Shown piece by piece: positions 5,316 to 57,891 of a DNA stretch of 64,000 bases; position 1 is the first letter of the stretch, and each line of letters opens with the position of its first letter. Under the pieces are notes generated by a model. That model had not been told where the DNA came from and searched no databases. It saw nothing but the letters and a program-made list of their open reading frames with translations. The DNA lies in the IMG/VR virus record IMGVR_UViG_3300044451_000175, positions 1 through 64,000 of that record; one strand, 5' to 3'. The stretch comes from a virus. A program made the position numbers and the translations under genes.

Positions 5316-7445
5316 ATGAACGAAGTTCCTACCAGCAACAAGGCCGTGTCTTTGCTGGACCGGGTAGCCGGTAAGTACGACAAGCGGCAGTTCCAGAAGC
5401 TCAACGAAGAGATGAGCTTCGGCGAATATCTGGAGATGGTCCAGAAGAACCCCCGCATCGTGCGTAACGCACACCAGCGTGTCTTCGACATGATCATGTC
5501 GAAGGGGTCGTACACCTTCGAGCGTTACCGCAAGACCCTGACCCACTACAACTTCTTCGATGACCCGGAAATCCCGATCTTCGACCTCGAAGAACCGCTC
5601 GATGAACTGGTGAAGTTCATCAAGGGTGCGGCCGGCGGGTTCGGCACCGAGAAGCGTGTTCTGCTCCTCCACGGCCCGGTAGGGTCGGCCAAGTCCACGA
5701 TCCTCCGCTTGCTCAAGCGGGGTCTGGAGAAGTACAGCCGCACCGACGAGGGCGCGTGGTACACCTTCAAGTGGGTCAACCTGCCGACCGGCTCGGACGG
5801 GATCTACACCCACACCGAAGACGAATGCCCGATGCACGAGGAACCCCTCAAGCTGATGTCGCTTGAGCGGAACCCCGGCGAAACCAAGTCCATGCGCGAA
5901 GCGTTCGTGGACGAACTCAACGTCACGCTGTTGGAGAGCGTGCCGGAAGAGAAACGGACCACACAGTACACGCTGCGGGTCAAGGGCGAACTGAACCCCC
6001 GCTGCAAGAAGTTCATGAGCGAACTGCTGAAGCGGTACGGCGGCGACTGGAAGCAGGTGGTCGAGAAGCACATCCGCGTGGTCCGCAAGGTTCACAGCGA
6101 GGCCGACCGCGTGGGCATCGCGACGTTCCAGCCGAAGGACGAGAAGAACCAAGACAGCACGGAACTGACGGGCGACATCAACTTCGCCAAGATCCCGCAC
6201 TTCGGTTCGGACAGTGATCCTCGCGCCTTTAACTTCGACGGAGAGTTCTGCGTCGGCAACCGGGGCATTGTCGAGTTCATCGAAATGCTCAAGTTGGAGA
6301 CGGCGTTCCTCTACGACCTCCTCGGAGCGTCCCAAGAGCAGAACATCAAGCCCAAGAAGTTCAGTCAGATCGGCGTGGACGAGATCATCATCGGCCACAC
6401 CAATCAAGCCGATTTCGACAAGCTCAAGAACAACCAGTTCATGGAAGCCCTCCGCGACCGGACGGTGAAGATCGACGTTCCCTACGTCACCCGCTGGAAG
6501 CACGAGATCAAGGTGCTGGAGCAGGACTACGGTTCCGGCAAGGTGCGTCAGCACGTTGCGCCACACACCCTCGAAATCGCCGCCCTGTGGGGCGTCCTGA
6601 CGCGGTTGCAGGACGACAAGGACGGCAAGATCGACCTGATCCAGAAGGCCGAACTGTACGACGGGAAGCTGCTTCCGGGGTGGACCGAGGACTCGGTCAA
6701 AGAACACATCATGAAGCACCCCGGCGAGGGCATGACGGGCGGCGTGAGCGTGCGGTACATCCAAGACAAGATCTCGAACTGCTTGTCGGCCCGCCACGAC
6801 TACATCAACTTCTTCATGGTCTTGAACGAGATCAAGGAAGGGTTGAGCAACCACAGCCTGATCACTCACAAGGACCAGATCAGCCGCTACCTGACGTGCG
6901 TGGAACTCTCCATCAAGAAGCTGGACGAGATCCTGAAGGCCGAGGTGCAACGCGCACTCGTCGGCGACGAGGACGCAATCGTCCGGCTGTGCGCCAACTA
7001 CATCGACAACGTGATGGCGTACATGTCGAAGGCGAAGGTGAAAAACAAGATCACCGGCCGCGACGAGCCGCCGGACGAGCGTCTGATGCGGAACATCGAG
7101 AGCCGCATCAAGATCCCCGATCAGGGGGCCGACGACTTCCGCCGGACCATCGCCGCGTTCATCGGCGATCTGGCCCACAAGAAGCAAGAGTTCAAGTGGG
7201 ACAGCAATCCGCTCCTCAAGAAAGCCCTCGAAGCGAAGCTCTACGAGGACACCAAAGACCACATCAAGCTGTCGGCCCTCAACGTGAGCGGTGCGACCGT
7301 GGTGCAGCCCGACCTGCAAGAAAAGATCGACGCGATCAAGACGCGGTTGATCAAACAGTACGGCTACAACGAGCAGTCGGCCAGTGACGTACTCGACTAC
7401 GTCGGCTCGATCTTCGCTCGCGGCGACCTCGCCGAGAAGGACTGA
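5316..7445 (+). CDS. prkA: PrkA-type serine protein kinase (YeaG family)
   Basis: 709 residues, slightly longer than E. coli YeaG. The N-terminal part contains the AAA/P-loop motif G-P-V-G-S-A-K-S-T (near residue 120) and the C-P-M-H-E-E-P-L region typical of PrkA; the C-terminal half carries the kinase-like region of the family. PrkA proteins are Ser/Thr kinases or AAA proteins tied to starvation, nitrogen stress and sporulation in hosts. It starts an operon prkA - two small genes - yeaH - spoVR, the same partner set as the bacterial yeaG-yeaH-ycgB genes. A clear site precedes the ATG. In a phage it may hold the host in a stress-adapted state; this is inference. Confidence 0.88.
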   Translation: MNEVPTSNKAVSLLDRVAGKYDKRQFQKLNEEMSFGEYLEMVQKNPRIVRNAHQRVFDMIMSKGSYTFERYRKTLTHYNFFDDPEIPIFDLEEPLDELVKFIKGAAGGFGTEKRVLLLHGPVGSAKSTILRLLKRGLEKYSRTDEGAWYTFKWVNLPTGSDGIYTHTEDECPMHEEPLKLMSLERNPGETKSMREAFVDELNVTLLESVPEEKRTTQYTLRVKGELNPRCKKFMSELLKRYGGDWKQVVEKHIRVVRKVHSEADRVGIATFQPKDEKNQDSTELTGDINFAKIPHFGSDSDPRAFNFDGEFCVGNRGIVEFIEMLKLETAFLYDLLGASQEQNIKPKKFSQIGVDEIIIGHTNQADFDKLKNNQFMEALRDRTVKIDVPYVTRWKHEIKVLEQDYGSGKVRQHVAPHTLEIAALWGVLTRLQDDKDGKIDLIQKAELYDGKLLPGWTEDSVKEHIMKHPGEGMTGGVSVRYIQDKISNCLSARHDYINFFMVLNEIKEGLSNHSLITHKDQISRYLTCVELSIKKLDEILKAEVQRALVGDEDAIVRLCANYIDNVMAYMSKAKVKNKITGRDEPPDERLMRNIESRIKIPDQGADDFRRTIAAFIGDLAHKKQEFKWDSNPLLKKALEAKLYEDTKDHIKLSALNVSGATVVQPDLQEKIDAIKTRLIKQYGYNEQSASDVLDYVGSIFARGDLAEKD

Positions 7446-12224: not shown

Positions 12225-12414
12225 CGGGACACAGGTACGCATCACCGGCAACCACACCCTGGTAAAAGGGTCTTTGGTTTTGAACTGCACTGGTCTGACT
12301 GGCATAGTTGACCGCTATTGCCATTGGTCCGACTGTTTCGTTGTGCTTCTGGACGATCCGCCGCACCACGAACTCTGGCTCGGCGAACTGGAGATCCAAA
12401 AGGTATTACCATGA
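12205..12414 (+). CDS. Small unknown SH3/KOW-like protein
   Basis: 69 residues from this ATG (an in-frame ATG at 12178 would add 9). The pattern G-T-Q-V-R-I-T-G-N-H then K-G-S-L-V-L-N-C-T-G-L-T-G-I-V-D and F-V-V-L-L-D-D is that of a small beta-barrel such as SH3/KOW. Its stop overlaps the dnaE-N start (ATGA), so the two are coupled. The function is unknown. Confidence 0.5.
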   Translation: MRSAFPSGTQVRITGNHTLVKGSLVLNCTGLTGIVDRYCHWSDCFVVLLDDPPHHELWLGELEIQKVLP

Positions 12415-13832
12415 GCATCCCTGTCACCGGCCTGGAACACCTTCACCTGCACACGGATTTCTCGCTTCTCGACGGGTTCGGGATGGTGGAGGAGTACACG
12501 GAGCGGTGGAAGAAGCACGGCCGCTTCCTGTGCATCAGTGACCACGGGATGATGGGAGCCGTACCGCGCCAGATCAAAGCCTGTGAAGCCGTCTGCGAAG
12601 AACTCAAAGACAAAAACGCCTTCTCGCCCATCTTCGCCTGCGAACTTTACGTCAACCGCTACCACACCGAAGCCACGCCCGACGTTGCCAGCCGCGAAAA
12701 GCTGCTCGCGGGCATGAACCCTGATGAAAAGGCCGGTTTCAAAGTCCGTGGCAGTCACCTGCTCGCCATCGCCTACAACGAAGTTGGCTACAGTAACCTC
12801 GTCAGAATGACGACGTGGGCGTACCTGAACGGTTTCTACGGCAAGCCCCGCGTCAACTACGAACAACTTCTGAAACACAAAGAGGGTCTGATCTTCACGA
12901 GTTGCTGCTACAACTCCGAGATCGGTCGCGCCTTCGAGTACGGCGGGACCAGTTACGAAGAGAAGCGTGACGCCGCCGCTGTCGTCATCGAGCGGTACAT
13001 TCAGATGTTCGGTTCGGAATACTTCTACCTCGAAATCATGCTCCTCGATTTCGAGAAACAAAAACCCTACGACAAGTTCATCATCTGGGCGGCAGATAAG
13101 TACAAGCTCCGTCTGATCGTCACCAACGACTGCCACTACTGTCTGCCCGAAGACTCCGAGTACCAGCGTCTGATGTTGATGCAGCAGACCGGAAAGACAA
13201 TCAAAGACATTCAAAAGGCACTCAACGAAGAGGGCATAAAAGACCTGTTCGAGCTTCAGGACCAAAACTTGTGGATGAAGACCGAAGAAGAACTGAATGA
13301 CATGTGGGTGAAGAAGTACAGCGACACTATCGATCTGGACATCTTCCAGTGCGCCAAAGCGAACACCGTCAAGATCTGCGAGATGTGTAAGGGCGTGAAG
13401 CTCGACCGCCGCAACAAACTGCCCAAGCTCAAGAACGCCGAGGACGAACTCCAAACCCACATCCTGAATGGGTTCAAGGAACGCCACATCGTCGGCAAAC
13501 ACTACAAGGCTCGCGCGGCTCAGGAATACGAACTGATCTGTCGCAAGGGGTTCGCGTCTTACTTCCTGATTCAGAAGAAGATGGTGGACGAAGCCCGGCG
13601 GTACTACCGCGACGTGCTGAAGCTCGGAAGTGGCTACGAGGCTGTGGGTCCGGGCCGTGGGTCGGCCGTGGGCGCACTCACCTGCTATCTGTTGGGCATC
13701 ACCGACGTTGACCCGGTGGAAGAAGATCTGCTGTTCGACCGCTTCTTGAGCGACAGTCGCGGCGGTCGGCAGATCAAACTGCGGTTCTCGAACATCGACC
13801 CGATCATCACCAAAAAAGAAGAAGCCGCTTGA
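12411..13832 (+). CDS. dnaE: DNA polymerase III alpha subunit, N-terminal half (PHP domain plus palm start)
   Basis: 473 residues. A PHP domain occupies about 1-275, with metal-ligand motifs H-L-H-L-H-T-D-F-S-L-L-D, I-S-D-H-G-M-M-G and V-T-N-D-C-H-Y. A DnaE-type palm start follows, including Y-E-L-I-C-R-K-G-F-A-S-Y-F-L and the nucleotide-binding loop G-P-G-R-G-S-A-V-G-A-L near 432, then L-L-F-D-R-F-L. It stops just where the catalytic P-D-x-D-x-D motif should follow; that motif is in the separate gene at 19258. No intein features are visible at the C-terminus. The last residues (K-K-E-E-A-A) are encoded by a terminator stem for the opposite strand. It probably assembles with the C-terminal half. 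Confidence 0.88.
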   Translation: MSIPVTGLEHLHLHTDFSLLDGFGMVEEYTERWKKHGRFLCISDHGMMGAVPRQIKACEAVCEELKDKNAFSPIFACELYVNRYHTEATPDVASREKLLAGMNPDEKAGFKVRGSHLLAIAYNEVGYSNLVRMTTWAYLNGFYGKPRVNYEQLLKHKEGLIFTSCCYNSEIGRAFEYGGTSYEEKRDAAAVVIERYIQMFGSEYFYLEIMLLDFEKQKPYDKFIIWAADKYKLRLIVTNDCHYCLPEDSEYQRLMLMQQTGKTIKDIQKALNEEGIKDLFELQDQNLWMKTEEELNDMWVKKYSDTIDLDIFQCAKANTVKICEMCKGVKLDRRNKLPKLKNAEDELQTHILNGFKERHIVGKHYKARAAQEYELICRKGFASYFLIQKKMVDEARRYYRDVLKLGSGYEAVGPGRGSAVGALTCYLLGITDVDPVEEDLLFDRFLSDSRGGRQIKLRFSNIDPIITKKEEAA

Positions 13833-13847: not shown

Positions 13848-15086
13848 TCACATGTCGTCGTCTTCTTCCCACGGCATCTTTTCATGCTCGTCGTCTTCGT
13901 CGTCCGAGTCGTCGTCGTCTTCGTCATCGAGGTCGTCATCCCCGCTTTCATTGTCGTCATCTAGACCCAGATCGTCGCTGAAGTCGAGTTTGTGGTCGTC
14001 ATCCCCGCCTTCATCTCCCATCCCGCCCTTGCCCGGAGGTGGCGGCGGGCTGTCTTCGTCCCCGCCGGCCATGTCGTCCATCTCCCCGCCGAGGTCCGGC
14101 TTCTCGCCGCTGTCTCCGAGGTCGTCGCCGCCCATGTCACCCTTGCCCGGTGGCGGTGGCGGCATGTCTTCGTCACCGCCTTCGCCCGGACCACCTTCAT
14201 CATCCAGATCGAGGTTGTCTCCAACATCGCCGCCGTCTTCGTCCCCTTCGCCGTCGTCGTCTAGATCGAGGTCGTCCTCTTCGTCGCTGACTTTACGTTT
14301 CTCTTCTGACGGGTCAACGTCTTCGATGTCCATGCTGTCGTCGTGGGCCGGCTCGTCAACTTCTTCGCGGATCGCATGTTCGAGACGCCGCTGGAACGCT
14401 TCGCCCTTTTTGCTTTCGATGATCTTGGCGAGAGCTTTGAAAGCCTCTGGGATCGTCAGCAAGTCGTTCACGAGAGCTTGAACCCCTCCGCTCCGGTTGA
14501 TTTCGCGGACGAGGGCGTTACGCAAGTTGGCGTTCTCGTTGGCGAGGTACGCGACGTACCGAATCGCCTGAACCGGGTCCGGGTAGAACGCGCCGGCCGA
14601 GTGCGCAACGACGTGCGGTGCCTTTTTGCTCTTAACGTTCTCGGTCAGCCCCTTCTTGACGTGCTTGGCGAATTCGGCCGTCGTCATGCCTTTGGTGGCT
14701 TTGAGGAACGATTCGGTGGTCGTGGGACCGCCCTTCGGCCAACTTGCCACGGACTTTCCGCCGGACACGCCCTGTGTGGACTTGCTCACTCCGTTTTTGC
14801 CACCGTACCAGCCGTCACCCGGCTCGTACACGAGTCCTTTGTCGCCCATGTGTGCGAAGCCGCCCTTTTCAGCCTTCTTGGGGGCTTTGTCGGTGCCGCT
14901 CTTGTACGGCGCGGGCGTACCTTTGCTGCCGACGTTGGGGACTTCCCAATTCTTGCCTTTGGTCGAGCCTTTCTTGGGGCTTTTCTCTTTTGGGCCTTTG
15001 TAGTCTGGGGTCGCTTCGACTGGCGGTGCGGTGACGACTTTCCCTTTAGAGGAAAGGTACTCTTTGAATGTCTTGAACGATTTCAT
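13848..15086 (-). CDS. Acidic-tailed protein with capsid-targeting-like N-terminus, possible prohead core or cargo protein
   Basis: 412 residues. The N-terminus MKSFKTFKEYLSSKGK fits the shared F-x-E-[FWY]-L motif and closely resembles T4 internal-protein targeting sequences. A basic, Lys/Gly/Pro-rich region (about 17-165) is followed by a helical region (about 190-280). The last 145 residues are almost solid Asp/Glu with two P-P-P-P-P-G-K-G repeats. This charge layout suggests a scaffold, prohead-core or DNA-mimicking protein. GGAGG precedes the ATG, which I prefer to an upstream in-frame start because of the motif. The role is inferred. Confidence 0.7.
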   Translation of the reverse strand: MKSFKTFKEYLSSKGKVVTAPPVEATPDYKGPKEKSPKKGSTKGKNWEVPNVGSKGTPAPYKSGTDKAPKKAEKGGFAHMGDKGLVYEPGDGWYGGKNGVSKSTQGVSGGKSVASWPKGGPTTTESFLKATKGMTTAEFAKHVKKGLTENVKSKKAPHVVAHSAGAFYPDPVQAIRYVAYLANENANLRNALVREINRSGGVQALVNDLLTIPEAFKALAKIIESKKGEAFQRRLEHAIREEVDEPAHDDSMDIEDVDPSEEKRKVSDEEDDLDLDDDGEGDEDGGDVGDNLDLDDEGGPGEGGDEDMPPPPPGKGDMGGDDLGDSGEKPDLGGEMDDMAGGDEDSPPPPPGKGGMGDEGGDDDHKLDFSDDLGLDDDNESGDDDLDDEDDDDSDDEDDEHEKMPWEEDDDM

Positions 15087-15823: not shown

Positions 15824-16198
15824 GGGGATGAAAAGGTTTCGATACGGTACGGAGGTTGTGAGTTGCACGCCGTGGTTGAGCGAAGGGCCACGTTAAAAAT
15901 CGTTCAAACTCCATCTGGCAAAACCAGTGGTCTGCGTCTGGTGGGCGACCGCCCGGCGCTCCGTCTCGCGGCTTGACCGCGACGGGTCCGCGAGGGACTT
16001 CAGATAACTCGCGGGTCCGCAACACATCTGGATCGGTCATCAGGGTTGCTCCCTGACTGATGGCCGGAACTACCAGGGAAGCTTGCTCGTGACCTTGATG
16101 TCGGTAAGAGGTTACGGGGACTCCAGGCCCGACTAAGCGTGTGAACGAAATTTACAGTTGAAGTAGCGTACACGCGGGTTCGACTCCCGCCATCTCCA
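15824..16198 (+). ncRNA. ssrA: Transfer-messenger RNA (tmRNA)
   Basis: 375 nt. The tRNA-like ends pair (5' GGGGATG with 3' CATCTCC). The 5' part has TTCGATACGG and the 3' part has GACTAAGCGTGT and the T-arm CGGGTTCGACTCCCG, all as in tmRNAs; CCA is not encoded. The most likely tag starts at GGC (15917) and encodes GKTSGLRLVGDRPALRLAA before TGA at 15974-15976, ending in the Leu-Ala-Ala proteolysis signal and beginning with Gly-Lys-Thr like the Bacillus tag. A second pairing-rich region follows (pseudoknots). tmRNA with SmpB rescues stalled ribosomes and tags nascent chains; no smpB gene is seen here, so host SmpB would be used. Confidence 0.92.
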
Positions 16199-16201
16199 CT
16201 A

Positions 16202-19257: not shown

Positions 19258-22113
19258 ATGAAGAACGAGGAAGTTGACACACTTCGCATGATGTGCAAGG
19301 ACGCCCTCGCCGCACGCAACCTTCAAAACTGCCCGATTCACACCAAGCGACTGAAGTGGGAGATCGCCGAGATCAAGGCCCAAGACGAGGCCGCGTACTT
19401 CATCGACCTTCACGCCCGTGGCGTGAAGTACCCCAAGAACGAAAACAACCTTCTCGTCGCGTGGCTGCTCGGCATCTGCGACGACTATGAGATCGAGAAA
19501 GACCCTGAGTGCAACTACGGGGAGTTCCCCGACATTGACGTGGACTACCTCAAGGTGGTCCGCGACTACCTGAAGAACGAGTGGGCGTTGAAGGAGTTCG
19601 ACGGCCAGGGCTTCCATACTTGCAGCATCGGCAACTACAACACCTTCGGGATCAAGCAGGGCTTCATCGAGTGCGCGGTCACCTACGGGGAAGACCGCCA
19701 CGAGATCAACGCCATCACCAAGCAACTCAAACTCAAGGACGACGAGGGCAAGGGGCTGACGTTCGACAAGGCTCTCGAACTGTATCCCGAACTCAAGGCG
19801 TATTCCGAGAAGTACCCGCACATCGCGCGGGCGGTGAAGAAGATGCTTCACCGAAACAAGAACATGGGGAAGCACGCGGGCGGTCTGATCATCGCCGACA
19901 GCCCCATCGACAACCTCGTGCCGCTCGTCAAGAACGCGAAGGACGGGAGCATCAGTTCGGCGTGGGTGGAGGGTCTGCACGGTCAGGACTTGGGGCCGGT
20001 AGGTCTGATCAAGTTCGACATGCTCGTCATCGCGGACCTTGAACGGATCGCGATGATCAACCGGATCATCAAGAAGCGGCACGGGCTTCAGGGCGTGTGC
20101 GCCAAGCCGGAAACGCCGGACTGGGACTGGAGCGACGGCAGCTACCGCCACGACCCGAAGACCCTCGAACTGGCGAACAAGGCCGACCTTCTGGGCATCT
20201 TCCAGTTCGACTCGGACGGGATTCGGAAGTTGGTCCGCGAGGGCGGGGTGACCAACTTCCGCGACATCGTCGCGTACAGTGCGATCTACCGGCCCGGCCC
20301 GCTCAACATGAAGATGGACAAGGCGTACACCGAGCGGAAGCACGGCCGGGAGGAGTACACCGTACACCAACTGCTCGAAAAGTACCTCGGCTACACCTAC
20401 GGTGTCATGTGCTTCCAAGAGCAGGTAATGCAGATGCTCCACTTCGCGGGCAACATCCCGCTGAAGGATACCTACGCCGTCGTCAAAGCCATCGCCAAGA
20501 AGAAGGTCAAGGGTTTCGCCAAGTACAAAGAAAAGTTCATGAAGAACGCGGCGGTCAATCTCGGCCTGACCGAAGAACAGGTTGTCCACCTGTGGGGTCA
20601 GATCGAGAGCTTCGCCGAGTACGGTTTCAACCGCTCGCACAGTTGTGCGTACAGCTACATATCGGCGCGTCTGCTGTATCAGAAGGCCAACTACCCGTTG
20701 GAGTTCTGGGCCGGCACGCTCGCGTGCGAAGAAGACACTGACACGCTGAACCTGTACCGCCGTCAGGCTCAACGGGCCGGGGTGTCGCCGAACTACATCG
20801 ACCTGAACAAGAGCCACCACACTTTCAGCATCTGCGACGAAGACAATCAGATCTACATGGGCTTCGGAAACATCAAGGGCGTGGGCGAAGCCGCCGCCCG
20901 GAAGATCGTGGAGGTGCGAGAGGCGGGCGGGCCGTTCAAGGGCATCGAAGATTTCATGCTGCGGTACGGAACCGACGCGAAAGTTCTCCGCGCCCTCATC
21001 GGGTTGAGACTGTTCAAGGAAAGCGACCCAGTGACGCTCGCGAAGTTCGTGGAGAACTACAAGGAGTACATCACCAAGCAGCGGCAGCGGCACCAGCGGT
21101 ACAAGGACAGCATGGAACGCTACGACGCCAAGATCAAAGAACTGGTTCCGACCAATCTCCACCCTTTCATTTACCGGGACGGTTTCCTAGACAGCGTTCA
21201 GAAGAAGCTCGACAAGGACTTGGAGAAGGAAGTCGAGATCGAGGAAGAGTACGAAACTGGCGAGACGCAAGAGATCGAAAAGGTCGTTCGCGTTCCGAAG
21301 AATGACAACAGCGAGGCTTACGAGGCCGGCGAAGACATTCTTGTTTACGAGGCCGGCGAGGGCGATCAGGACTACGAGGACGTTGAAGCGTACACCGAGG
21401 TTGTCGAGAAGGTGACCGTTCCGGTGATGGCCACTCGGATCATCAAGAAGCTGAAGAAGTACAACCCGTATAAGCAATTGAAGAAGGAGTTTCAGTTGCG
21501 GGCGCGGACCATGAGCCAGTACGTCGAGCGGAACGAAGAAGAGGCGAAGAACACGCCGAGTCTGGCGACGTTCAATTCGTCGTCCGTCACCATCGACCCG
21601 AAATACGTCGCCCTGCTCCGCTCGCGGTTGCAGTCCGAGGTGACGTATCTGGGGTTCGAGTGGCAGACGGAGATGGAACGCAGCCCGGATTTCAACCCAG
21701 ACACGCCGCACACTTACGACGACGCGGAGATTCTGGCTTCGCAGGGGAAGAGTACCGTGATGCTGGACGGCCAGATCATGGAAGTGCAAAGTAAATTGGC
21801 GAAGAACAAGCGGACGAAGTACCACTCTCTTGTATTGATAGACGCACTCGGTCGGCGCGGGTACATCAACGTATGGTCGGACGACTGGGAGCGGTGCAAG
21901 GACATTCTCAAGAAGGGGAACTTGGTCCGCTTGGTGGTCCGACAGCCCACCAAAGGATTCAGCAGCTACTCGCTGTGGTCCCCTCGCGACCGTCGCAGCG
22001 GTCTGGGCGGTGTCGTCCAAGCCGTCCGTCTGATGAAGGCGGAAGAAGAAACGCTGTCGGAAGACGACTTCGAGAAGAAGATGACCGAATTAACCGGGGA
22101 GACAGATGAGTGA
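19258..22113 (+). CDS. dnaE: DNA polymerase III alpha subunit, C-terminal half (catalytic palm, fingers, OB domain)
   Basis: 951 residues. The N-terminal ~85 residues repeat, in degenerate form, the palm segment that also ends the other half (R-L-K-W-E-I then L-L-V-A-W-L-L-G-I), but the G-P-G-R-G-S loop is lost. The catalytic motif F-P-D-I-D-V-D-Y is near 88-95 and the third Asp lies in V-G-L-I-K-F-D-M-L near 250. K-H-A-G-G-L-I-I-A, R-P-G-P-L-N-M-K-M and F-N-R-S-H-S-C-A-Y follow as in DnaE, then a helix-hairpin-helix region (G-I-G/G-V-G-E-A) and an OB-like domain near 830-930. It has no PHP domain. It should need the 12411 product to rebuild a complete palm. Confidence 0.88.
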   Translation: MKNEEVDTLRMMCKDALAARNLQNCPIHTKRLKWEIAEIKAQDEAAYFIDLHARGVKYPKNENNLLVAWLLGICDDYEIEKDPECNYGEFPDIDVDYLKVVRDYLKNEWALKEFDGQGFHTCSIGNYNTFGIKQGFIECAVTYGEDRHEINAITKQLKLKDDEGKGLTFDKALELYPELKAYSEKYPHIARAVKKMLHRNKNMGKHAGGLIIADSPIDNLVPLVKNAKDGSISSAWVEGLHGQDLGPVGLIKFDMLVIADLERIAMINRIIKKRHGLQGVCAKPETPDWDWSDGSYRHDPKTLELANKADLLGIFQFDSDGIRKLVREGGVTNFRDIVAYSAIYRPGPLNMKMDKAYTERKHGREEYTVHQLLEKYLGYTYGVMCFQEQVMQMLHFAGNIPLKDTYAVVKAIAKKKVKGFAKYKEKFMKNAAVNLGLTEEQVVHLWGQIESFAEYGFNRSHSCAYSYISARLLYQKANYPLEFWAGTLACEEDTDTLNLYRRQAQRAGVSPNYIDLNKSHHTFSICDEDNQIYMGFGNIKGVGEAAARKIVEVREAGGPFKGIEDFMLRYGTDAKVLRALIGLRLFKESDPVTLAKFVENYKEYITKQRQRHQRYKDSMERYDAKIKELVPTNLHPFIYRDGFLDSVQKKLDKDLEKEVEIEEEYETGETQEIEKVVRVPKNDNSEAYEAGEDILVYEAGEGDQDYEDVEAYTEVVEKVTVPVMATRIIKKLKKYNPYKQLKKEFQLRARTMSQYVERNEEEAKNTPSLATFNSSSVTIDPKYVALLRSRLQSEVTYLGFEWQTEMERSPDFNPDTPHTYDDAEILASQGKSTVMLDGQIMEVQSKLAKNKRTKYHSLVLIDALGRRGYINVWSDDWERCKDILKKGNLVRLVVRQPTKGFSSYSLWSPRDRRSGLGGVVQAVRLMKAEEETLSEDDFEKKMTELTGETDE

Positions 22114-44850: not shown

Positions 44851-45558
44851 ATGGGCAAAGCTTCAAAAGCATCAAAAAATCCAAAAGGCGAGAAACCAAT
44901 GTCTCCTCGTCGCAACTCAACCGGGTCGTACCGACTCGAATTCCTCAACCCCGCTCAGAAGCTCGCTTGGGCCACAATCGATTCACACGACGTGTGTTTC
45001 CTTGTGGGTCCGGCCGGTACGGGCAAGACACAACTGGCGACCGCTTACGCGATCCAGAGGTTCTTGGCCGGCGAGTGCCGCAAGATCTTCATCACTCGAC
45101 CGATTGTCGAGGCCGAAGAGAAGTTGGGGTTCCTTCCGGGGTCGTTCGAGGAAAAGGTCTACCCGTACATGCTGCCGATCTACGACTCCATCGAAAAGTG
45201 TGTCGGTCTAGACACCCCGATGGCCGAGAAGATCAAGAAGTGTCTCGAAGTCGCGCCGCTGGCGTACATGAGGGGTAGAACCCTTGAGAGTGCCGTGTGT
45301 ATCCTTGACGAAGCCCAAAACTGCACACGCAGCCAAATCAAACTGTTCCTCACCCGTCTCGGTGCCGACTCGAAGATGATTGTCACCGGCGACCCGATGC
45401 AGAGCGATTTGCGTGGCGGTACCGAAGGACTCGAAGACGTTCTGGACGATCTCTCCGATCTCGAAGGAATCGGCATCGTGGAAATGAAGGCCGACGCCAT
45501 CGTCCGTCACCCGCTGGTCGGAAAGATCATCGAGAGATTCGAGAGGCCGCGTGAATGA
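44851..45558 (+). CDS. phoH: PhoH-like ATPase
   Basis: 235 residues. A basic N-terminus (1-25) then P-loop G-P-A-G-T-G-K-T (53-60), the ...I-L-D-E-A-Q-N Walker B region and T-G-D-P-M-Q sensor motif typical of PhoH. Common in large phages and proposed to act on RNA or in phosphate stress, role unsettled. TACAATAC ends 4 nt before this ATG and no Shine-Dalgarno site is present; a longer in-frame start exists but overlaps the previous gene. Confidence 0.88.
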   Translation: MGKASKASKNPKGEKPMSPRRNSTGSYRLEFLNPAQKLAWATIDSHDVCFLVGPAGTGKTQLATAYAIQRFLAGECRKIFITRPIVEAEEKLGFLPGSFEEKVYPYMLPIYDSIEKCVGLDTPMAEKIKKCLEVAPLAYMRGRTLESAVCILDEAQNCTRSQIKLFLTRLGADSKMIVTGDPMQSDLRGGTEGLEDVLDDLSDLEGIGIVEMKADAIVRHPLVGKIIERFERPRE

Positions 45559-45959
45559 ACGCACTCTACGATAAAGGCCGTCAGAAGTTCTTGGAAGGGG
45601 CCGTCGCTTGGTTGACCGACGACATCAAGTGTTGTCTGGTCAACGGCACCGATTACACCGTTAACCTCGGCTCTGACGAATTTCTCTCCGACATTCCCGG
45701 TGCGGCGATCATCGCCACCAGTGGCAATTTGGCTTCCAAGACAAGCACTGGTGGTGTCGCGGACGCCGCCGACATCAATTTCACAGCGGTTAGCGGCGAC
45801 CAAATCGACGCAATTGTGATCTACAAGGACACCGGCTCGGACGCCACCAGTCCGTTGCTGCTCTACTGTGACAGCGGCGTCGGCTTGCCTTTTACTCCTA
45901 TCGGATCTGACATCCTTCTCGGATGGGAAAACGGGTCCACGAAGATTTTCAAGCTGTAG
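45555..45959 (+). CDS. Phage virion-type structural protein
   Basis: 134 residues beginning M-N-A-L-Y-D-K-G-R-Q-K-F-L-E-G, then L-V-N-G-T-D-Y-T-V-N-L, S-G-N-L-A-S-K-T, G-V-A-D-A-A-D-I-N-F-T-A-V-S-G-D and I-V-I-Y-K-D-T-G. This layout is familiar from many phage genomes, where it lies in structural modules. It is probably a tail or head decoration component. The start overlaps the phoH stop (ATGA). The assignment is from pattern memory. Confidence 0.65.
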   Translation: MNALYDKGRQKFLEGAVAWLTDDIKCCLVNGTDYTVNLGSDEFLSDIPGAAIIATSGNLASKTSTGGVADAADINFTAVSGDQIDAIVIYKDTGSDATSPLLLYCDSGVGLPFTPIGSDILLGWENGSTKIFKL

Positions 45960-55590: not shown

Positions 55591-55889
55591 TAGAACGTCA
55601 GTTCCGAGGCCGCGAACGACAAGAGCATGCCGTTGTCGAGTGCGACGAGCCAGTTCGGAACCGAAACTCTGGCCTCCGACACTTTCTTGACTTTCTCTTT
55701 GCCGTACTGGTTTTTCTTGTCGAGCTTCACTTTGAACTCGTGGATGTACGGATAGGTGTATGGCCCGGCCAACACCGTACCCATCAAGTCCTGAAGTGCG
55801 CCCCCAACGGAATTGACTTTGACCCGCTTGCCCTCGTCGTTTCGTCCCTGGACGAGTGTGGCATCATCGGACAGTTTGGGATGGAGCAT
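55590..55889 (-). CDS. Unknown protein, 99 residues
   Basis: Convergent on the previous gene. Mixed structure: S-D-D-A-T-L-V-Q-G-R-N-D-E-G-K-R-V-K-V near the start, basic K-L-D-K-K-N-Q-Y-G-K-E-K-V-K-K in the middle, and hydrophobic end. No clear site; a short A/T-rich stretch precedes the ATG. Family unknown. Confidence 0.5.
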   Translation of the reverse strand: MLHPKLSDDATLVQGRNDEGKRVKVNSVGGALQDLMGTVLAGPYTYPYIHEFKVKLDKKNQYGKEKVKKVSEARVSVPNWLVALDNGMLLSFAASELTF

Positions 55890-55967
55890 AGCAATTAAGT
55901 AGTAACCCGGCTCAGAATTTGCTCCTGCGGCATACGATAAGAGATCGGCAAAAATCTGGAATTAGGG

Positions 55968-55996
55968 TTTACAAAGTCCGGGGGTTTGTCGATACT
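55968..55996 (+). promoter_or_regulatory. Sigma-70-type promoter of the non-coding region
   Basis: TTTACA at 55968-55973, a 17-nt spacer, and GATACT at 55991-55996. It lies upstream of the second, stronger promoter. Confidence 0.6.
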
Positions 55997-56043
55997 GAAA
56001 TTGTGACGGGTGGGACGCGACGAGCAAATAAAACAACGACAAG

Positions 56044-56072
56044 TTGACAAACTGCTCCGAACGGCCTACACT
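56044..56072 (+). promoter_or_regulatory. Strong sigma-70-type promoter of the structured RNA
   Basis: Consensus TTGACA at 56044-56049, a 17-nt spacer, and TACACT at 56067-56072. Transcription would begin near 56079, just before the first long helix. Confidence 0.7.
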
Positions 56073-56257
56073 GACTTGACAAGACACCGGAGACACGCCG
56101 TGCCGGGTAGGATCGAATGAATGGGCGACGTTCGGTCGCCGGCACGGTGTGCTTATGGCGGTCGGTTTGAAACGGCAAGCACGCAAAAACGGACAACGTT
56201 CAACTAAGATTGCGTTCTCCAAACTTGTGCGACCCGTATGCCTTCCGACCGCCTCCT

Positions 56258-56352
56258 GGGGGAGTAGCTCAGAGGCCAGAGCGCAATCTAGGGAGCCGAT
56301 TAAAAACCGGCAAACGTGATTGAGGTCGTTGGTTCGACTCCAACCTCCCCCA
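56258..56352 (+). tRNA. tRNA-like domain with a 29-nt anticodon loop
   Basis: Acceptor GGGGGAG/CTCCCCC (7 bp), TA at 8-9, D-arm GCTC/GAGC, anticodon stem CAATC/GATTG, a 5-nt variable loop and T-arm GTTGG-TTCGACT-CCAAC are all perfect. The anticodon loop is not 7 but 29 nt (56289-56317), itself containing GCCG/CGGC. No anticodon can be assigned. It is either a tRNA with a 22-nt insertion or a tRNA-shaped domain of the large RNA. No CCA is encoded. Confidence 0.6.
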
Positions 56353-56757
56353 CTCGGCAGGATGTTAGTAGCGGACTACATTACACCAACACCAATGTGT
56401 CTCTACGATTTTTTGCCTGCCACAACATGCCCCTGGTGGGGCGATCTGCCGGAATGGGCGACGGCAGACGTAACGCCAGGGGCTTCTTAAATCCAGAACG
56501 GGTCAGCGAAAAAGCACCAACGGCATGTAAGAGTGCCTACCCGTTCTGGACTCGTCTTCCGCCTTATCAGCGGAAGTGGTGGAGGCGACGGTGTCACCAA
56601 CATCGCTGCCCTTCGGAGAGTAAACTCCGAGCGACTCCGGTCGCGAAACAAATCTGGTGGATCGCTGGCTACTGCCGGCCCCCGGAGTACAGTCTTCGGA
56701 CGGGCTTGACCCGGAAACAAAACTGATGTGGAGTTCCTGTAAAAAGGGGCTTCATAT

Positions 56758-56829
56758 GGGGAGCAGGTGTCAAGGGACACGTCCTGGCTAATCACCGGGA
56801 AGAGTGGGGTTCGATTCCCCGGCTCCCCT
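56758..56829 (+). tRNA. tRNA-like gene, loop would give anticodon AAT
   Basis: Acceptor GGGGAGC/GCTCCCC, T-arm TGGGG-TTCGATT-CCCCG, D-arm GTGT/ACAC with a short loop, anticodon stem CCTGG/CCGGG and loop CTAATCA. The anticodon would be AAT (Ile). Position 37 is C instead of the usual purine and the discriminator is T, so it may be a tRNA mimic or a diverged tRNA. No CCA encoded. Confidence 0.55.
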
Positions 56830-57044
56830 CTGGCGATGGGGATATACCCCTCGCCTCTCACTCGCAACATTTTTGACCCGGTCGGGGTGCGATCCCCGTG
56901 GGTATGCAGTAGCGGGTGTACATTCATGAAAAGCGGAGGGACGTAATGTCCGAACACTACCAGAGGGGACCGCCCCTGAGAATGTACTACCCCTATATGG
57001 CACCCATGTCCGCATACCGCATCTGATCGCGCGGGCCGGGTGAC

Positions 57045-57081
57045 AAAAACCCCAGTGAAACCCACTGGGGTTTTTGTTTTT
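57045..57081 (+). terminator. Terminator of the structured RNA
   Basis: A 13-bp perfect stem (AAAAACCCCAGTG with CACTGGGGTTTTT), a 5-nt loop, and a T-rich tail. Confidence 0.85.
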
Positions 57082-57096
57082 CAAGATAGATACAGC

Positions 57097-57891
57097 ATGC
57101 ACACCGTCTTCGCCGAGTGGCTGTTCGAGCGGACCACCGATCCCGAACGCCGCGCCAGAATCGACAAGGCTTTCAACACCCTGAAGGCGTTCATGGAAAA
57201 GGTCGTCAAAGAAGACACCTTCTCCGACTACTTCCAGACGGACGGCGACTTCTACTACTTCTTTCCCTGCGTCAAGCACCTGCCCGAAGTCTTCAAAGGG
57301 AACATGGAGTTCATCGCTCAGAAGTTCGACAAGGAAGCTCAACAAGACACGAACCCTCTGATGGGCCAGCAGATCGACTACAGCGGCGGGTTCAACTTCC
57401 TCGACCACGATCCGCCGCTGTTCACCTTCGTCTTCCAGACCGACCGCAAGACGTTCATCCAGAACTTTCCGAAGTATTGTGCCAACTGGTTGTCACAGGT
57501 TCGGCAGACCTTCAATCACGAGTACAACCACTACCTCGACTGGCTCGACTCGGACGGGAAGGCGATCCCCGCCAAGAACATCTGGAACGCCGGCGCGGGC
57601 GAGGCCCAACGGAAGAAATACTTCAACTCGACGCACGAGGTCAACTCGTTCTTCACCGACATGGTGATGGACGACTTCGAGTTCGTGCGGGGCGGGATGT
57701 TCTCGAAGATGCCGCCGGCCAAGAAACTCGCGGTGTTCGAGAAGATGTACGGCCGGGACGCTCGCGAGTACGTCGCCAAGTTCTGGACCCGCAAACAGGG
57801 CTTCTCCGAGTTCTCCACGGAAACCCGCAAGCGGCTGTCGAAACGACTGTACGCCGCCTACCAGCAACTGAAGGCCGAAATCTCGGCTTGA
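57097..57891 (+). CDS. Zinc metallopeptidase-like protein with capsid-targeting-like N-terminus
   Basis: 264 residues beginning MHTVFAEWLFERTTDPE, with the motif and a L-F-E triplet. The zincin motif is H-E-Y-N-H-Y-L-D-W-L near 147, with T-H-E-V-N-S-F-F near 188 as the likely third-ligand helix. TAGATAC lies 3 nt before the ATG and no Shine-Dalgarno site is present. It would act after delivery if packaged. The target is unknown. Confidence 0.72.
   Translation: MHTVFAEWLFERTTDPERRARIDKAFNTLKAFMEKVVKEDTFSDYFQTDGDFYYFFPCVKHLPEVFKGNMEFIAQKFDKEAQQDTNPLMGQQIDYSGGFNFLDHDPPLFTFVFQTDRKTFIQNFPKYCANWLSQVRQTFNHEYNHYLDWLDSDGKAIPAKNIWNAGAGEAQRKKYFNSTHEVNSFFTDMVMDDFEFVRGGMFSKMPPAKKLAVFEKMYGRDAREYVAKFWTRKQGFSEFSTETRKRLSKRLYAAYQQLKAEISA

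Follow-up and report, generated by a model that had tools for sequence, protein, structure and literature searches.

A predicted Y-RNA-type Ro-binding stem within a structured 1-kb RNA gene of a tRNA-rich phage that encodes Ro60

What might a phage encode in a kilobase of DNA that holds no gene, folds strongly and has its own promoter and terminator? The question is raised by positions 56079-57081 of a 64,000-base stretch (hereafter the window), which is the opening part (positions 1-64,000) of the 188,369-base contig IMG/VR record IMGVR_UViG_3300044451_000175. A first-pass annotation, made from the letters alone, had proposed a large ornate non-coding RNA that could belong with GOLLD and ROOL or form a new class. 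Our analysis points elsewhere. On the evidence of sequence comparison, the segment 56354-56425 is well supported as a Y-RNA-type Ro-binding stem, and because the same virus also encodes a Ro60 protein, the RNA gene probably supplies one half of a viral machine for handling RNA and is not a new giant RNA of the GOLLD/ROOL type. Ro60 and Y RNAs form an old RNA quality-control pair, lupus autoantigens in animals and known from few bacteria; bacterial Y RNAs of this type tether the Ro60 protein Rsr to PNPase or gate the Rsr ring, steering the decay and quality control of structured RNA.

The starting clue to the stem came from a related phage, G006, in which the Rfam model of the bacterial Y RNA YrlA matched end to end at the head of the tRNA array, behind tRNA-Met. 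This model aligns along its entire length with two G006 stems (E 9e-7 and 1e-5), which score 33.3 and 29.5 bits versus a gathering cut-off of 69. In the window, the bases behind tRNA-like domain 1 have the layout of the G006 stems and share the string GCGGA(A)CTACATT. The window stem starts 3 nucleotides (nt) behind this domain, with helix 1 (56356-56361/56416-56421) followed by the loop ATGTTA (56362-56367), helix 2 (56368-56376/56399-56406, with a bulged C at 56372), the loop bases TACAT (56377-56381) and a 3' loop GATTTTTTG (56407-56415). It thus has the two-helix stem, asymmetric internal loop and conserved loop bases of a Y RNA. Within the transcript it forms with a probability of ~0.9, and imposing it on the full fold costs 1.6 kcal/mol. 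Since it lies outside the YrlA cut-off and lacks a tRNA-like domain in its loop, we call it a Y-RNA-type Ro-binding stem and not YrlA.

A descriptor of this layout picked out three new copies in the same contig (83010, 84404, 84613) and a further one in G006, each of them following a tRNA. The first descriptor was drafted with the window sequence in view and is not independent for the window copy, the three other contig copies being new; therefore a covariance model (R2) was trained on those three alone, with one loop base deleted in one row. In the whole contig (188 kb) R2 ranked the window copy fourth, below only its own training rows (E 2.3e-8), and with filters off in 6 kb it gave E 7e-10 with nothing else below 2. 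R2 also returned a fifth contig copy at 85334-85419 (E 2e-4) and one match in G006 (E 4e-6). A strict descriptor run over 2.26 Mb gave seven matches, all within the tRNA arrays of two phages, while three further matches look like chance, of which shuffles lead us to expect ~1. Ten stems are now known, five in the window's phage, three in G006 and two in Myxococcus phage Mx1, and every one begins 1-4 nt 3' of the end of a tRNA or tRNA-like gene. Besides the window copy, the window's phage thus has at least four stems, which lie in its main tRNA array.

The stem family also covaries. Across the three training copies all 14 pairs are paired, seven with double-sided changes (score 0.81 versus 0.26 shuffled). 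For the ten stems 97% of cells are paired, double-sided changes occur at 14 of 14 pairs, and the score is 1.02, whereas shuffled alignments score 0.30 and slid ones no more than 0.19. The shuffle control is generous, because the loops were trimmed by hand, the window's bulged C was omitted and pairing had itself helped to pick out members; more weight falls on the held-out search. All ten stems have the unpaired bases ATG, TACAT and TTG without change, the descriptor itself having required TACA, ATG and TG; a helix 2 G-U pair that it did not require is kept in eight. Covariation, a check suggested in the first-pass annotation, is present in the Y stem; no homologue was found for the remaining domains. 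YrlA matches on tandem tRNAs (e.g., G002 167303, G000 87932) were set aside, because a T arm with a D arm behind it can imitate YrlA, itself similar to a permuted tRNA.

The candidate partner is encoded in the same genome. A Ro60/Rsr gene of 597 residues lies at contig positions 132725-134518, and its product matches TROVE at 31.6 bits (cut-off 23) and vWA_Ro60 at 52.6 bits (cut-off 27.7), retains the metal-site motif DVSGSM and is closest to Deinococcus Rsr (2nvo, E 5e-18), the next best matches being Ro60 chains of other organisms. AlphaFold, run without an alignment, gave no usable model (predicted local distance difference test score 38). An Rfam search beside the gene found nothing. Ro-like proteins have matches in 186 phage records, the closest being that of Mx1, an isolate (41% identical over 96%). 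Phages Myrna and Limpid, which also carry Ro60, yielded no stem by R2 or descriptor in the ~41 kb searched in each. TROVE proteins are mentioned in a survey of jumbo phages (PMC7824862).

Taken together, we consider it likely that the RNA is a precursor of tRNA mimics and of a minimal Y RNA serving the phage Ro60. From the computed structure, promoter, terminator, covarying stem family and Ro60 gene we infer a course in which the region would be transcribed as one RNA with its modules in series, and RNase P, together with 3' processing, would act on the tRNA or tRNA-like domains and so release Y stems. By analogy with known systems these stems may bind the phage Ro60, which would then steer the decay or quality control of structured RNA, be it host RNA or the phage's own many tRNAs. 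In YrlA the basal stem tethers Rsr and the tRNA-like domain binds PNPase, giving a machine that degrades structured RNA (PMC8394870); here, the separate tRNA-like domains may be mere processing signals or may take the place of the tRNA-like arm that the stem lacks. Mycobacteriophages are reported to have Y RNAs, and in Listeria phage CKA15 housekeeping-type promoters drive abundant RNAs close to the tRNA genes, with an Rsr-like gene adjoining (PMC12282133).

The rest of the locus bears out much of what had first been read from it. By a codon-usage model of the contig there is no credible gene in 55890-57039, and the promoter, the terminator and the two tRNA-shaped domains of a structured non-coding RNA are supported by fold statistics, motif scans and tRNA searches (Table 1). 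The minimum free energy of the 1003 bases is -463 kcal/mol versus -371 +/- 8 in 60 dinucleotide shuffles (z about -11); among 40 one-kb contig windows folded, this region has the strongest value (z -11.7; runner-up -6.1), and the plus strand is favored by 30 kcal/mol (-461 versus -431). As the 5', middle (56354-56757; z -6.8) and 3' parts each beat all of their shuffles, the structure is not due to the tRNA-like domains alone. The complementary segments named at first reading all recur, that is GGCGGTCGG/CCGACCGCC (56157/56245), TCCAGAACGGGT (56492/56539), GTACATTC/GAATGTAC (56918/56980) and GGTATGC/GCATACC (56901/57012). It should be noted that an isolated 8-base complement is no more than chance would give in 1 kb, and the weight lies on the 12-13-bp hairpins, the terminator and the nested 3' series. 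A single transcript made of successive folded modules is predicted.

Table 1. Predicted elements of the RNA gene, with positions in the window and the evidence for each.
Element	Position	Strand	Evidence
Sigma-70-type promoter, TTGACA-17-TACACT	56044-56072	+	10/12 consensus bases; 0.5 such sites expected per 2 kb scanned
Predicted transcript, series of folded modules	56079-57081	+	No credible gene, fold z, strand preference
5' domain: hairpin 56094-56151; long helix GGCGGTCGG/CCGACCGCC, 56157-56165 with 56245-56253	56085-56256	+	z -4.4
tRNA-like domain 1: acceptor, D and T arms normal; anticodon arm enlarged	56258-56352	+	ARAGORN, Rfam 52.7 bits
Y-RNA-type Ro-binding stem	56354-56425	+	Held-out covariance model, covariation, pairing probability ~0.9
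Hairpin GCCCCTGGTG/CGCCAGGGGC, inner TCTGCCG/CGGCAGA	56429-56483	+	Fold
12-bp hairpin TCCAGAACGGGT/ACCCGTTCTGGA	56492-56550	+	Fold
13-bp hairpin, ending immediately 5' of tRNA-like domain 2	56726-56757	+	Fold
tRNA-like domain 2: regular acceptor and T arms; 5-bp D arm closed by a 4-nt loop; CTAATCA as anticodon loop	56758-56830	+	ARAGORN only
3' domain, five nested helices: ACCCGGTC, GTGCGATC, GGTATGC, GGGT, GTACATTC and complements	56876-57041	+	z -3.2
Strong intrinsic terminator, 15-16-bp stem and T run	57042-57078	+	Fold, motif scan

Neither tRNA-like domain looks fit for decoding. A decoding tRNA has a 7-nt anticodon loop with U33, whereas in domain 1 the anticodon stem CAATC/GATTG encloses 29 bases, including a GCCG/CGGC hairpin, and position 33 is A counted from either side; an intron was ruled out, as no single excision yields U33. 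Domain 2 departs by its 4-nt D loop, scores below the Rfam tRNA cut-off and is not among the Rfam tRNA matches. Related phages too have tRNA genes with enlarged or interrupted arms. On the minus strand of LR756511.1 (287.9-291.5 kb; L038), tRNA genes are interrupted by ~52-nt inserts of pseudoknot-like layout (ACTTGGA..GAAAG..TCCCC...AAGCTTACAAAC), present in ~12 copies, some free and apparently circularly permuted, with no Rfam match. Two G006 tRNAs at 98422 and 104137 (L205:10422-10550 and L205:16137-16264) carry a near-identical ~55-nt insert between anticodon-stem positions 28 and 29, removal of which gives back a regular stem and loop. Others, lying 3' of homologous genes in G001 (L031 near 14483-14605) and G004 (L204:1714-1837), have a common anticodon-arm insert, GGCTGAAAATGCC..ATAGT, a pattern found in only three IMG/VR contigs. 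G001 also holds a 136-nt sequence (292391-292502; L034) resembling transfer-messenger RNA (tmRNA), with a very short region separating two tRNA-like halves.

The contig itself is tRNA-rich, with 48 tRNA genes outside the window, mostly at 67-91 kb (ARAGORN), and a tmRNA at 15824-16201 of the window (Rfam). Spacers of the main array (contig 67100-68480; L008:3100-4480) contain long perfect hairpins such as GAACCCTCGCC...GGCGAGGGTTC. The DnaE-like DNA polymerase is encoded in two genes (12318-13832 and 19258-22113), with the tmRNA and other genes in between, and is closest to those of very large metagenomic phages, namely LR756511.1 (595 kb) and IMG/VR contigs of 341 and 527 kb. The product of the gene downstream of the RNA (57097-57888) has no homologue in the phage collection, three related records or IMG/VR.

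Because the aligned relatives are only ~41-43% identical in this polymerase, DNA-level homologues of the 1-kb RNA were neither expected nor found. Searched by blastn, the 1 kb gave only short T-arm and terminator-like matches in 50,697 phage records and only short pieces, T arms mostly, in nine related records. An exact pattern scan of viral sequences for the 12-bp helix returned nothing, and when aligned locally with the heads of tRNA arrays in related phages the RNA scored no better than the best shuffles. Homologous array heads in G006 (L205 4900-5150) and G002 (L029 near 7000-7250) consist of a promoter, tRNA-Met and a structured RNA, and close with a short conserved reading frame that starts MLVS and contains GITCPC.

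These results bear on how the whole transcript should be read. An intact 1-kb ornate RNA of the GOLLD/ROOL kind, or of a new class of that kind, working for example as an RNA-only cage, with the tRNA-like parts and the Y stem as passengers in its linker, would suit the length, the z of -11, the nested 3' domain and the tRNA-rich phage setting; GOLLD also lies near tRNA islands and its linker sometimes holds tRNAs (PMC12286853). We nonetheless hold this to be improbable. Permissive Rfam searches (E up to 10), run both on 55800-57200 and on the whole contig, returned neither GOLLD (RF02032), with its conserved 3' region, nor the ROOL fold (RF03087), and HEARO, likewise proposed for checking, was not listed for 55800-57200. 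In addition, the partition function favors local hairpins for the most part and gives the long-range closing pairs probabilities of only 0.4-0.55, and a model of the 3' domain (R1) matched only itself in ten phage records. A wholly new class need not be invoked for the best-understood part, 56354-56425, a Y-RNA-type stem for which this genome holds both relatives and a protein partner; yet the whole could be a new large RNA containing the Y stem, as no homologue was found for the bulk of the transcript (5', middle and 3' domains). Somewhat less improbable, if still unlikely, is that the entire transcript acts as one composite giant Y RNA, its Ro-binding stem and complete tRNA mimics being separate modules that bring the phage Ro60 to tRNA-handling enzymes.

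A humbler origin in decaying tRNA genes, with both domains pseudogenes, the hairpins spacer structure and any function limited to processing, is consistent with the dozens of contig tRNAs, some of them under the tRNA cut-off, with hairpin-rich spacers and with the lack of a normal decoding arm in either domain. We give it little credence, as the z of -11.7 far exceeds the -4.3 to -5.2 of the main-array spacers, the Y stem is conserved with compensatory change and the region has its own promoter and terminator. Least probable in our view are decoys against host tRNA-cutting defenses, in which tRNA-like domains without a cleavable anticodon loop would occupy anticodon nucleases or tRNA sensors and the Y stem would only aid stability or delivery; related phages have enlarged anticodon arms as well, but this leaves the Y stem and Ro60 unexplained. 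Our preferred reading, the precursor RNA, also has evidence against it. The Rfam YrlA model misses the window copy even with E values up to 10 allowed. The stem loop of this copy measures 22 nt (56377-56398) and, like those of three other contig copies, has no tRNA-like domain; in the window, tRNA-like domain 1 lies outside the loop and upstream. R2 and the descriptor gave no convincing stem in the tRNA-rich relatives W01 and G002, and there is no TROVE match in G002, G006 or W01, some of these records being fragments. The other ~900 bases of the transcript, moreover, have no homologue in the searches made.

Phage Ro60 genes are commonly annotated, whereas few of the RNAs that they work with have been identified. 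With this stem family downstream of phage tRNAs, and with an isolate (Mx1) that has the same stems and Ro60, a model for further searches is at hand and the function of phage Ro60 becomes open to direct testing. Our results also suggest how Y RNAs may arise next to tRNA genes, and that phages rich in tRNAs carry tRNA mimics that do not decode but serve RNA control.

Among known systems, GOLLD and ROOL are likewise large structured phage RNAs near tRNA islands, and GOLLD may contain tRNAs, however, their covariance models give no match here. Listeria phage CKA15 has strong TTGAC/TATAMT promoters for non-coding RNA near tRNAs as well as an Rsr-like gene, and its authors propose Y RNAs (PMC12282133); those RNAs were measured, whereas ours is predicted from sequence. 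Mx1 (OR576727) is similar in having a Ro60 gene within a tRNA-rich region and two stems behind tRNAs, with ATGC, TACAT and GATTTTG as conserved bases. These stems, at 45170-45294 (behind tRNA-Pro) and 45522-45626 (behind tRNA-Ile; L220), are not annotated as Y-RNA-type. Mx1 differs in its long stem loops, the first with T-arm and D-arm hairpins inside, and a 1-kb composite transcript was not seen there. With YrlA (RF02553) and Rsr/Ro60 the window's phage shares the base-paired Ro-binding stem, the ATG-type 5' internal loop, CUA/TACAT after helix 2, a 3' loop ending in UUG, a Ro60 gene in the genome and tRNA mimics nearby. The window copy differs from YrlA in its short loop free of a tRNA-like domain and in escaping the Rfam model, and the phage differs in carrying several copies of the stem, each behind a tRNA or tRNA-like gene.
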